Below, one piece after another: positions 10,801 through 25,800 of a stretch of 64,000 nucleotides of DNA. Below the pieces are notes generated by a model. That model saw nothing but the letters and a program-made list of their open reading frames with translations. It ran no database searches and was not told where the DNA came from. The stretch is from Chaetoderma sp. LZ-2023a. Lineage: Eukaryota > Mollusca > Caudofoveata > Chaetodermatida > Chaetodermatidae. Numbering within the stretch: position 1 is the stretch's first letter; each line of letters starts with the position of its first letter. The position numbers were made by a program, and so were the translations under genes. Where the stretch lies: positions 147,380,233-147,444,232 of the forward strand of contig CM067359.1 of assembly GCA_034401795.1 (NCBI GenBank), in the 5' to 3' direction.

Positions 10801-13800
10801 ATAGCATGTAGTCAGCTCGGTGTTCTGTTTATGATGTTCGATGACTGCATGGGTGCGGAAACGCTCTGTTTGTTGCGTATATCCGATGAGTGCAGATAAA
10901 GGCAGCTAATGAATCTTCATTACTGTTGCTTTTTCCAATTCCATAGGACCCAATACACGAAGCAAATCCTGGTTACGTTTCTGTTTTGCTTAGTAGTGTT
11001 GGGGATTGATACTATTTTTGTGATCGATGATTGGTTTTCCTCACCGATACTCAATTAATGATTGATCATAACAAGTTCTCATTTTTTACCCATTTTGAAT
11101 GCAGTAATTATAGCATATTCAAGGATAATTACCCCTTTCAAACTAAGTCGCAGGTATGACAGATTCTTAATAATTGAAGAAATAATTTGCGGGATATTTT
11201 GAAACTAATTTGACTGGAAGCTGTTGCTGCCTTAGGCAGCAACAGTTTCAGTCAAATAAGTTTCAAAATATTCAACGTGTTATCGGTATGGTAGCTTTGA
11301 AATTAACATACTATTTCAGTGCTGAAAGAAATAATGACTAAGGAGTAATACTATATAGTTGTAACAATTAAATTTAAATTAGTTTCCAAAAAGTATTCGT
11401 TTTCTAGCTTGACCAGTTAAACTATATTAATATTGTCAATTTATAAACAACCAAAATCGATTTCTGAAATCATGATCGATCGATTGCTTGAACCTTGCAA
11501 ACCAATCAAATCGATTAATTGGAACAGCACTATTGCTTAGTGTTACAAGTTTGAAGTTAACACATAGGAAGAGTTGGAATCTTGCTGGAATATAGATAAT
11601 TATGCACAATTTATCATAGAATGAATCGAGTAGGTGTTACTTCATCTTCATTCACACTGCGATATTTTATGGTAGTGACGTTTCAGATTGGGATGGCTCG
11701 ATCAATAACTGAAATGCGTTCATTGGTGTATGCAAAACTAAGAACATGGTCGGTGATTGGCTTCTTTCTGTTCGAGTGAAATACGTTATGGCCTGACTGC
11801 AAGATGGCTTCTGAGTGAGTGAATACTTTTGTTTCTCGGATGGATATGATACAAATGTTGTAGTGATAGCAGCCTCTACCCAGCTTTTGTCTTTTCGATG
11901 AACTGGTTAGATCGTGAACGTTCCACGTTGCGAGAGCGAACTCAACTGGCGGTGGTCTAGTGTGTCATAGATGGTGATTGTTTGGTTGAAGAAAAATAGA
12001 CAATTAGAAAATTAAAAAACTGGTAGTAGTAGTAGTAGTAGTAGTAGTAGTAGTAGTAGCAGCAGCAGCAGCAGCAGCAGTAGTAGTAGTAGTAGTAGTA
12101 GTAGTAGTGGTGGTATTAGTAGTAGTAGTAGTAGTAGTAGTAGTAGTAGTGGTAGTAGTAGTAGTAGTAGTAGCAGTAGTAGTAGCAGCAGCAGCAGTAG
12201 TAGCAGTAGTAGCATCAGTAGCAGTGGCAGCAACAGTAGTAGTAGTAGTAGTAGTAGTAGTAGTAGTAGTAGTAGTAGTAGTAGTAGTAGTAGTAGTAGT
12301 AGTAGTAGTAGTAGTAGTAGCAGGAGCAGCAACAGTAGTAGTAGTAGTAGTAGTAGTAGTAGTAGTAGTAGTAGTAGTAGTAGTAGTAGTAGTAGTAGTA
12401 GTAGTAGTAGTCGAAGTGAACGCACGCGTTTATTTAGCTCTGCAATTGCTGCCGGAATTTGCTAGTTTCTAGCGCGATTTTGTAGATAAATTATATATAT
12501 ATATATTTCGTATTAGTATTTCCTTTCAAACTTTATGTTTAATTTGTAAATTCTTGTCTTGGTTGGAGCGCATTTTGTGACTCCATTTTCTAAAGGCACT
12601 CCTCTTAGCTGGCGGTTTCAGCCATTTAATAGGTCTCCTCTTACTGTGGTCAGTGCAGTACTTTTCTCCCTGCGCCAGTATGCTATTTCTATAGTTCGTT
12701 GGCTAGCGCATTGTATTTGGCAAGATCGCTTGAGTGAGTGGATTTAATTCCTTTGTCATTTGTAAGCGCAAGCCTAGTACTTTCATTATGTAAATCTTTA
12801 TAGTCAGTTAGCACTAGAAACTCCAGATGACAGAATCATGAATGAACTCAAGAAGTATGGCAAAGTGCAAAAGATTGAACGGGAAACGTATCCCTTTGAC
12901 ATAACGCTAGAAAACTGTGTAAGACGCATCTGGTTTGATAAAGTGGATAGGCCTTTACCAAGCAGATTGACGCTTGATGGCAGCTTTGTCTTGCCCTTAT
13001 GGTATAGAGGGAAAATTAAAGAGTCCCGGATCTTCCTAAGTACTGACCATTTGGCAACAGATTGTCCCAATCGAAACAAATGTTTGCTCTGTGGTTCAGT
13101 TGACCATTTTAAATGGCACTGTCCAAAATTCAAAACAAGCCCTCAGTATCAGGAGATAATCGCCCATTAGAAGATGCAACTGAGTCAAATGCTTCTGAAG
13201 CAATCACTACGGAAGCTGTTGTTGTGGTTCATGGCACAAACAAATCATCAAATCCTGTTAAAGTAACTACAGTTGATGAAATTCAAGTATTAGAGGAGGG
13301 TATAACCTTAAGTCAAGAAAATATTCAAAATGCAGTGGAGCCAAATGTGGCTGTAAAAGACACGCAGGAAAATGATGATCTTACAGAAGAGCCAGTTTAC
13401 AATTCCTTAGAAGATGAATTAAAATTAGGACAGGATAAGTTTAGGACTCAGAAGATGGAAAGTTCAGTCGATTTTCTGCTAAGTCCACTTGGTTTAAGTC
13501 AGCTTGAAGATATGGTAAATGATGCTCCTGCCAAATGTAACTTAAGTAGCAATAAGCGTCATAAAGAAGACAATAGCTCAGAATCTGAGATTGAAGGAAA
13601 TGATATGGATGATGATACAATGTCAGTTGCAGAATCAGATGTGTCCATTCAAACACAGGGTTCACAGATGAAAGACGAAATGGTAATGTACCGATCAGAA
13701 GGGGGTGAAGTGTTAGTGCCATATGTAATGGCGAGAGGCGTGAAATATCGTCTACTGCGCCATGATTCAGATATTTCCAAATATGAATATTTGTCTGTGG

Positions 13801-22800: not shown

Positions 22801-25800
22801 TGCATTAGTTCTTGATGATGAGATGTTAAAATACAAGATGAGATCCAAGGAATGGTACCACATTATGAGACGAAAACAAGTAACACCTCCCATAGCAATT
22901 AGGAGATGGGATGACTCAAGCTATAAACCATACAGTTGGAAAAATGTATGGAAAATCTTACATTCTCCATACATACCAAATATGGCTCGTGATTTATTGT
23001 GGCGATTACTACATCGACGGCTATGGGTGGGACACTTGACATACAAGTGCAATATTACGACTTCTGATAGGTGTTACTTATGTCAAACAGACAAGGAAAC
23101 AATCGAGCATTTATTTGCAGAATGTCCAATATCGTCACAATTTTGGGACTATATCAGCCAAATCTTGGCAAAATTTGGAGCAAAGCCCATTGATCTAGAA
23201 ACGCATGTAGTCTTATTTCGAGAAATTGGATCAAGTGGTGTAAGTATCATAAAGTCTGAAAGGACTATTTTAATAACAATGCTAACCATAGGTGTTTGGG
23301 CCATTTGGAAACATCAATGTGCGCAGACAAAAAATCCATCTATGGGCAATCACAATAGAGCAATAAAGGCAATATTTCGTTCATTGCTGCTGAATCATAT
23401 TCCTTGCGAATATTTTAGATTAAAGCAGCATGGTAAAGAAAAAGTATTCAAGGACATATGGTGCAAAACAAATATGGTTTCAATAGAGTTGGGAACTGTA
23501 AAAATAAATGAGCCTGCACTAGCTTAAATCATTTAATTACTACAGCTGATTTATCTGTGTCTTTTAATTAATCTGTGTCCTGTAATTCATTTTAGTCTGC
23601 ATTTTGATATCGTTATGTTTAATAATTCATGTTAGCAAATAAACAGACTGGGGTAATTTAATAATCAATCAATAAAGTAAGTTGCCATTGAATTATAAAA
23701 TCGTCCCGGGTAATTTTAGAAACTTGCACAGGGTTTTATAGGGTTATTTGTTCCCGGGTAATTTACAAAACCTTACAACAAAGTAAATCAAAAATGTAAA
23801 CAAGAGCGCCATCTATTTCCATCTATTTTTCTGTAATTTTCCTGCTGACTATATATGTTATGCTACCCAAATGTTACTACGCCCGCTGATCTTTAAAGAA
23901 TCAGCCCACTGGCGTCAATGATTGACTTATTTGTCATTGATTGACGAGTCACTTTTCATTTGTTGAATAGTTGCACTCGCCAAACGGCCCTACTACCACA
24001 CATGGATTGAATGGTAATTTACAAAACCTTACAATAAAGTAAATCGGAAATGTAAACAAGAGCGCCATCTATTTTTCTGTAATTTTTCTGCCGACTATAT
24101 GTATTATACTACCCAAATGCTACTGCGCCCGCTGATCTTTAGAGAATCAGCCCACTGGCGTCAATGATTGACTTATTTGTCATTGATTTACGAGGCACTT
24201 TTCATTTGTTGGATAGTTGCACTCGCCACACGGGTCTACTACTACACCTGGGTTGAATAGTAATGCCTTTGTTAAGTTTTGTTTTGCTTTCCGATCTTTA
24301 TCAGCCTATTGTTTTGTATCTATACTTTTTAAGCCATATGTATTTATAGATTGTATTAATGCTCATTATTTATCTTTTGTTTTGGTGTAATATTAATCAG
24401 GCTTACTAGTTTACCATTTTTTTTTCTGGGGGTTTGCAAAGCCGTTTTACAGGAGTTCCTCCGTGAAGTTTGTCCTACTGCATCAGCGTCGGGTTTTCAC
24501 AAAAAAGAAAAGAAAAAGTAAGTAAGTAGTAGTAGTAGTAGTAGTAGTAGTAGTAGTAGTAGTAGTAGTAGTAGTAGTAGTAGTAGTAGTAGTAGTAGTA
24601 GTAGTAGTAGAACTATGTAAAACTCTGAAACATTTCCCTGAATTATTTTGCCCGGGCTTGCAAAGAAATTGTTACCTGTGTGACAGTTGTCGTTGTTGTT
24701 GCCGTAGTACCGGTAGGAGTTGCTGTAGTTGCTGTAGTTGCCGTTGTTGTTGCCGTAGTTTCGGTAGGAGTTGCCGTAGTATCGGTAGGAGTTGCTGTAG
24801 TTGCCGTTGTTGTTGTCGTAGTATCGGTAGGAGTTGCTGTAGTCGCTGTTGTTGTTGTCGTAGTATCTGTAGGAGTTGCTGTAGTTGCCGTTGTTGTTGA
24901 CGAAATATCGGTAGGAGTTGTTGTTGTTGTCGTCGATGTTGTTGTAGCATCGGTAGTAGTTGCTGTTGTTGCCACACTGGTTGTAGTGCCACCTGCAGAT
25001 AGCAGCAAAATAAAACAAAGGCCATAGTAAGCACACTGCACAATTATATCTCACCATAATATATTTAGCATAGCGGGCTTATCCATCGCCCTGGGGTTAG
25101 TGAAGAATCATTGAGCGGGTAGCAGTCCACAGCCCACTGTTTCATGACCAACGGGACATCGCCAATCCATACGCGTATTTTTTGTCATAGAGAAACCAGA
25201 GTTTCGCCCAAGAGAAAATTCAGAGGCTTGAGCCAAGGTAGCAAGATGGCTCATCGTTGAAGTTTACTGATGTTTCAGCTAAACATCTGCATAACATGTA
25301 TTCTAATTCACCTTTCTAGCGTATCCATCTATCAACCTGACACCATATGACGTCATACTCAGCTAAGTGGCGTGTAGGATGATGTCATAATCATTACGTC
25401 ATACGTGATGTTATTTGGTCTGTCTTTAACTCTTAATAGTCCGACACGGTGTACGAATTGTAAGTCTCTACTATTTAATAAACATGCTGTTGAATATTTT
25501 GAAACTAATTTGACTGGACGCCTAGTCAAATTAGGTTCAAAATATTCAATATCTTAACTGTATAGTTTTCTGGAAATTGATAGTCAGAGAGTTCAGAGAT
25601 CGATCGATCCAAATACGAGCGAGGTGTGGGAGGAGCTTAGCTAGAGTTGGAGCAGCATAGATAAAAATGGAAAGGTCCATTTTGCTCCGTGGCTGCTGTT
25701 GGGGATTCAAAACCTCTTCACTCCTTGACTGCTTTACTGAATCTTGCCATCGGTAAGGTCGACTAGCTGCAATGGCATGGCGTGGTAAAAGGCATCGTAC

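Follow-up and report, generated by a model that had tools for sequence, protein, structure and literature searches.

A window of 64,000 nucleotides (the whole stretch of DNA analysed here) from the caudofoveate mollusc Chaetoderma sp. LZ-2023a (assembly GCA_034401795.1, contig CM067359.1, positions 147,380,233 to 147,444,232, forward strand) carries two long interspersed nuclear elements (LINEs) lying between arrays of the trinucleotide AGT. It is very probable that they belong to an L1/Tx1-type LINE lineage, consisting of families E1 and E2 and probably of a third, family X, that inserts in one orientation into AGT arrays already present in the genome. That this lineage targets AGT repeats had been proposed earlier from the letters of the window alone (the sequence-only reading); the proposal is now supported, as most of the tallied 5′ and 3′ ends are flanked by AGT and the register of the junctions is nearly constant.

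All counts come from one genome of 2.44 Gb. A 12-mer taken from the sequence-only reading occurs in it 1331 + 1302 times (forward plus reverse strand), against 20 + 33 times for the reversed control. The L-numbered loci mentioned below are 100 listed places of this 12-mer, out of 2633 in the genome; the first 20 were fetched in list order, 10 kb each, and 3′ flanks were sampled at 60 of the 100. For the ends of the elements we used a 20-nt 3′ block (1051 + 993 occurrences) and a 25-nt 5′ block (798 + 784), both with reversed controls of 0 + 0. The AGT tallies are limited to the strand on which each start counts once, forward for the 3′ block and reverse for the 5′ block; the tallies for the opposite strands (3461 for 3′ reverse and 1531 for 5′ forward) are inflated, the former by overlaps, and were left unused. 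Genome-wide, AGTAGTAGT follows within 6–36 nt in 944 of the 1051 3′ blocks on the forward strand, and 749 of the 784 reverse-strand 5′ blocks have AGTAGT 0–10 nt upstream. With blocks so numerous against controls of 0 + 0, and with AGT adjoining such fractions of them, chance is excluded as the source of the association. Flanks of mostly non-AGT sequence, named in advance as the outcome that would speak against targeting, did not appear.

At the 3′ side, AGT trimers follow the element at all 60 sampled places. AGT was seen after the 3′ end in 20/20 copies taken in list order; among the next 40 places, at least three perfect AGT units were present within 250 nt in 39, and the fortieth (L042) has interrupted AGT and then another 5′ end. 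The junction fits AGT in a single register in 56 of the 60 (the exceptions are L016, L024, L039 and L045). A-rich 3′ ends running into AGT, as described earlier for the window, were seen in 58/60 sampled ends; in L034 and L059 AGT comes directly after the 3′ end, with little or no A tail.

At the 5′ side, an array stands directly at the end of the element in 17 of the 20 list-order copies (16 with the 5′ terminus, plus the truncated L027); it does not in L016 and L022, and the end of L023 is beyond view. Full-length sampled copies start at T/CGAAG, with the junction at the slash, or at a close variant. Twenty 600-bp segments near expected 5′ ends yielded eight with the terminus, two reading N and ten without the terminus; AGT was present at 8/8 of the termini found. 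Five of the terminus-free segments were taken further. The terminus, again with AGT, was reached in L091 and L092; the other three copies are truncated, L093 with AGT and L089 and L090 with none directly at the 5′ end. Probing of 40 further places 1.65–1.9 kb upstream gave a match to an E element in 33 and none in 7 (L097, L108, L114, L115, L116, L118 and L126). The flank tabulation that had been suggested as a check has thus returned AGT at both ends of most copies examined; an array at both ends of most copies, in fixed orientation, is what a microsatellite-specific LINE should show.

Within the window, the order obtained with Tandem Repeats Finder (TRF) and direct reading is AGT array, LINE 1, (AGT)18, LINE 2, (AGT)29. 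Both LINEs are on the plus strand, on which AGT also reads, so that the order and shared orientation claimed for the window were borne out. Domain matches are to Pfam families.

12023..12411, plus strand: imperfect AGT array with AGC/GGT interruptions, 5′ flank of LINE 1 (TRF and sequence)
about 12412..18672, plus strand: LINE 1, E1-type, broken copy, starting with CGAAGTGAACGCACGC and ending in an A-rich tail (sequence)
13837..15099, plus strand: reading frame of LINE 1 carrying the endonuclease domain (PF03372, E 4.9e-14; columns conserved in alignment A1)
14993..15658, plus strand: first of two pieces of the LINE 1 reverse transcriptase (PF00078, E 3e-05; its 24.2 bits fall short of the cut-off of 29.6)
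15954..17030, plus strand: second of two pieces of the LINE 1 reverse transcriptase (PF00078, E 1.3e-04; its 22.2 bits fall short of the cut-off of 29.6)
16955..17728, plus strand: LINE 1 C-terminal zf-RVT domain (PF13966, E 5.3e-09)
18673..18727, plus strand: pure (AGT)18.3 separating the two LINEs (TRF)
about 18728..24524, plus strand: LINE 2, E2-type, broken copy (sequence)
19615..20403, plus strand: reading frame of LINE 2 carrying the endonuclease domain (PF03372, E 3.5e-11)
21042..21839, plus strand: LINE 2 reverse transcriptase (PF00078, E 1.8e-21)
22208..23527, plus strand: LINE 2 C-terminal zf-RVT domain (PF13966, E 2.3e-13)
24525..24610, plus strand: pure (AGT)28.7, 3′ flank of LINE 2 (TRF)

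LINE 1 is 91% identical to the copy in L021 across 5.87 kb, and LINE 2 is 95.4% identical to the copy in L028 across 5.42 kb. The sequence-only reading had taken the two as one lineage with a common 5′ landmark, ACGCACGC. The AGT context is indeed common to both, but they represent separate families, E1-type and E2-type; likewise, AGT does adjoin the 5′ end, but the landmark is 8 nt internal to CGAAGTGAACGCACGCG, the 5′ terminus in most copies seen, and LINE 2 lacks its CGA. Frames are disrupted in the two window copies alike, and none is longer than 439 codons. In comparison with other copies, both have lost the start of open reading frame 1 (ORF1), ∼560 and ∼1140 nt respectively; these deletions, at window positions 12812 and 19105, begin at the same TAGTCAGTT site, and no splice signals were seen at the two. 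The 3′ untranslated region (UTR) of LINE 2 holds a 246-bp unit twice (window 23757–24264), and other E2-type copies are similarly doubled.

Several observations weigh against insertion into pre-existing arrays. The strict AGT pattern is missed by 35 of the 784 5′ blocks and by 107 of the 1051 3′ blocks, and in 6 of the 60 3′ flanks (L015, L040, L042, L056, L061 and L062) the longest perfect AGT run is just 2–4 units. While three of the seven 5′-truncated copies have AGT at the 5′ side (L010, truncated at 667, L027, truncated at 3084, and L093), four do not have it directly at the 5′ end: L016 is a chimeric copy, L022 adjoins sequence in reverse that leads on to the 3′ end of a family X element, L089 adjoins another element in reverse (element Z, described below), and the 5.3 kb upstream of L090 contain no run of AGT or ACT reaching four. 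Also, L014, a chimera of an E1 part followed by an E2 part, entered the counts as a single copy; with the E2 part taken as a further truncated copy, the list-order sample becomes 16/20 and the truncated set 3/8. Finally, the first interruption statistic was non-significant (p 0.21).

The four truncated copies are what one would predict if AGT were carried by the element, i.e. if transcripts began and ended inside an array and AGT travelled at both ends to random sites. The sequence-only reading had listed this as a refuting outcome, and we now consider it improbable, though with these four copies on its side. The other three truncated copies do have 5′ AGT. Arrays vary between loci in length and interruptions, while some arrays match across one copy: a copy's own 5′ and 3′ arrays share 73 complex 12-mers, whereas shuffled pairs average 22.4 (p 0.0044, 19 copies), a signal contributed by 6 of the 19 copies, chiefly L019 (44) and L026 (16), and in L012 AAT-interrupted AGT is found on both flanks. 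The outer edges of the arrays in 10 loci show no sign of target duplication (longest shared string 3–6 nt, chance mean 4.2); this is a weak test, as the edges were set by a script and the outer 5′ sequence is still repeat in L025 and another element's tail in L013, L014, L019, L021 and L028. The outer-edge test, the locus-to-locus differences and the matching interruptions, taken together, favour insertion into an older array.

One could also suppose that the 3′ tail seeds AGT and that slippage grows the arrays after insertion, the 5′ AGT being supplied by tandem neighbours. An array is indeed common to neighbours in L011/L012, L027/L028, L024 and the window pair; still, the A-rich stretch ahead of AGT at all sampled 3′ ends except two, and the long arrays on both sides of some copies whose fetched stretch contains no further E element (e.g. 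upstream in L020 and L026), make such an origin very unlikely. Even less credit, close to none, can be given to a composite AGT-LINE-AGT unit that multiplied as a satellite or through segmental duplication: interruption patterns recur inside some arrays, yet outer flanks and arrays differ among the loci printed, and the AGT context is common to different families as well as to truncated and internally deleted copies.

Insertion into an existing array could proceed as follows. The ORF2 endonuclease would nick the ACT strand between two repeats, at ACT^ACT; this is a T^A step, as is typical of the L1 endonuclease. The free ...CTACT-3′ end would anneal to the element RNA at its A-rich tail and prime reverse transcription, and the AGT strand would then be cut in the same register. 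With a second cut in the same register, any target duplication would consist of whole repeats and be invisible. That the ORF2 endonuclease may cut within AGT, as suggested earlier from the window, is supported by the constant register of the junctions.

In L089 and L022 a truncated E2 copy is joined head to head to a different element, whose sequence is reversed. Such joins could come from two templates primed from both cut strands, or from a later inversion.

The ORF2 proteins of E1 and E2 are 58–60% identical in the longest alignments. When unedited copies in L021 (E1-type) and L028 (E2-type) are compared, the DNA is 95–97% identical in the first 600 bp, then 84%, and beyond this stretch 55–75% per 200-column block, with 84% in the last block; the near-identical first 600 bp possibly reflect an exchange of the 5′ UTR. 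ORF1 and ORF2 frames are open in two sampled E2-type copies, and stop-free frames of 471 and 1304 codons are kept in L019 and L028. Probes of ∼250 bp (n = 33) showed a median identity to the reference copies of 95.6% for E1 (n = 16) and 98.0% for E2 (n = 17). The stop-free frames and the close match of the probes suggest recent activity.

The N-terminus of ORF2 matches an EEP-type endonuclease (PF03372, E 2.1e-14, residues 15–241), and the C-terminus a zinc-binding domain (PF13966, E 5.6e-14). The closest solved relative of ORF2 is human L1 ORF2p (PDB 8sxt, E 1.3e-76, query residues 12–877), in agreement with the ‘L1-like’ label given by the sequence-only reading; in this comparison, among solved chains only, L1 ORF2p scores 261 bits against 54 bits for R2. 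Judged by these predicted domains, an EEP endonuclease, an L1-type reverse transcriptase and a C-terminal zinc domain, the elements fall in the L1 superclade (L1 plus Tx1). An ORF1 with CCHC zinc knuckles is a Tx1-clade feature; the ORF1 here has a weak zinc-knuckle match (PF00098, E 0.0046), whose 17.4 bits do not reach the cut-off of 20.8. Endonuclease residues invariant in 28 sequences include Q46, E47, D154, N156, D216, D240 and H241 (LINE 1 numbering); in L1, residues of this kind are catalytic. A protein search returned P0002 (99%), P0003 (66% to E2 and 94% to the LINE 1 endonuclease), P0004 (54%) and P0005 (53%), the remaining relatives being at 35% or below. In a tree of 80 proteins, built by a quick method without bootstrap and with no named Tx1 sequences among its rows, P0001–P0005 form one clade with SH-aLRT 100 and a long stem.

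Kibi and Koshi are microsatellite-specific LINEs of the Tx1 clade with TC repeats as the target. They resemble E1 and E2 in having an EEP endonuclease and a reverse transcriptase and in inserting into a simple repeat in fixed orientation; the target of E1 and E2 differs in being the trinucleotide AGT. Human L1 ORF2p likewise combines endonuclease with reverse transcriptase, and its T^A nick would suit the AGT junctions. L1 insertion sites are dispersed TTTT/AA sequences, however, in place of an AGT array; a further difference is the ORF1 here, which has a weak zinc-knuckle match only. Insertion in microsatellites is also shared by LINEs of other groups: Togen is described as (TG)n-specific and placed near NeSL (PMC4640811), and DongAg/DongBg as LINEs in microsatellite repeats, with Dong in the R2 group (PMC3636483), whose endonuclease is restriction-like; that of E1 and E2 is of the EEP type. 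Microsatellite-specific LINEs are already known as a kind; an AGT-specific LINE was not found in the literature searched (titles and abstract openings, with subscription papers and Repbase reports outside the scope).

If AGT targeting is true, the lineage shows, at high copy number, an L1-type endonuclease directed at a trinucleotide, a target common to open copies and to related families (ORF2 proteins 58–60% and ∼41% alike). A change from loose to repeat-specific cutting would then become testable within the lineage. The lineage may in addition provide a system for inserting into gene-poor repeats and explain why AGT arrays here are nests of retroelements.

Other elements are found at AGT arrays as well. 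Family X, which is 40.6% identical to the C-terminus of E2 ORF2, sits upstream of the AGT array in L021; its 3′ block was counted 221 + 194 times, with 0 + 0 for the control. AGT is present at 23 of 25 exact-variant family X 3′ ends in contig C1 (3′ ends only, matched by hand). A fourth relative, in L013 (34%), likewise runs into AGT. Element Z is probably a Penelope-like element, as judged from matches to RVT_1 (27.6 bits, E 2.8e-6) and GIY-YIG (17.6 bits, E 0.0047) that stay below the respective cut-offs of 29.6 and 22.6 bits. It reads on the opposite strand to the LINEs at AGT arrays. Its 3′ end is flush on AGT in L089, L018 and L011, at the same base plus or minus one, while the end in L080 has no array; the total of 3/4 ends abutting AGT comes from a biased sample, the loci having been fetched for AGT-linked LINEs. 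It is conceivable, though we lean against it, that AGT came to be targeted independently, and from opposite strands, by several LINE families and by a Penelope-like element unrelated to them, one microsatellite thus hosting a community of retroelements. A literature search on Penelope-like elements and microsatellites showed none linked to AGT among the papers listed.

In L019 (9253–9351, in element orientation) an AGT array and an ACT array meet head to head, with nothing in between. Elsewhere in the window (39941–40428), a 305-bp non-AGT sequence (40028–40332) lies between (GTA)29 and (AGT)32; it has no Rfam or ARAGORN match, and 141 bp of this sequence have a 74% relative in L086, ∼190 bp past another AGT array. 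The window also contains a satellite array at 46821–54072, with a 348-bp unit in ∼21 copies.

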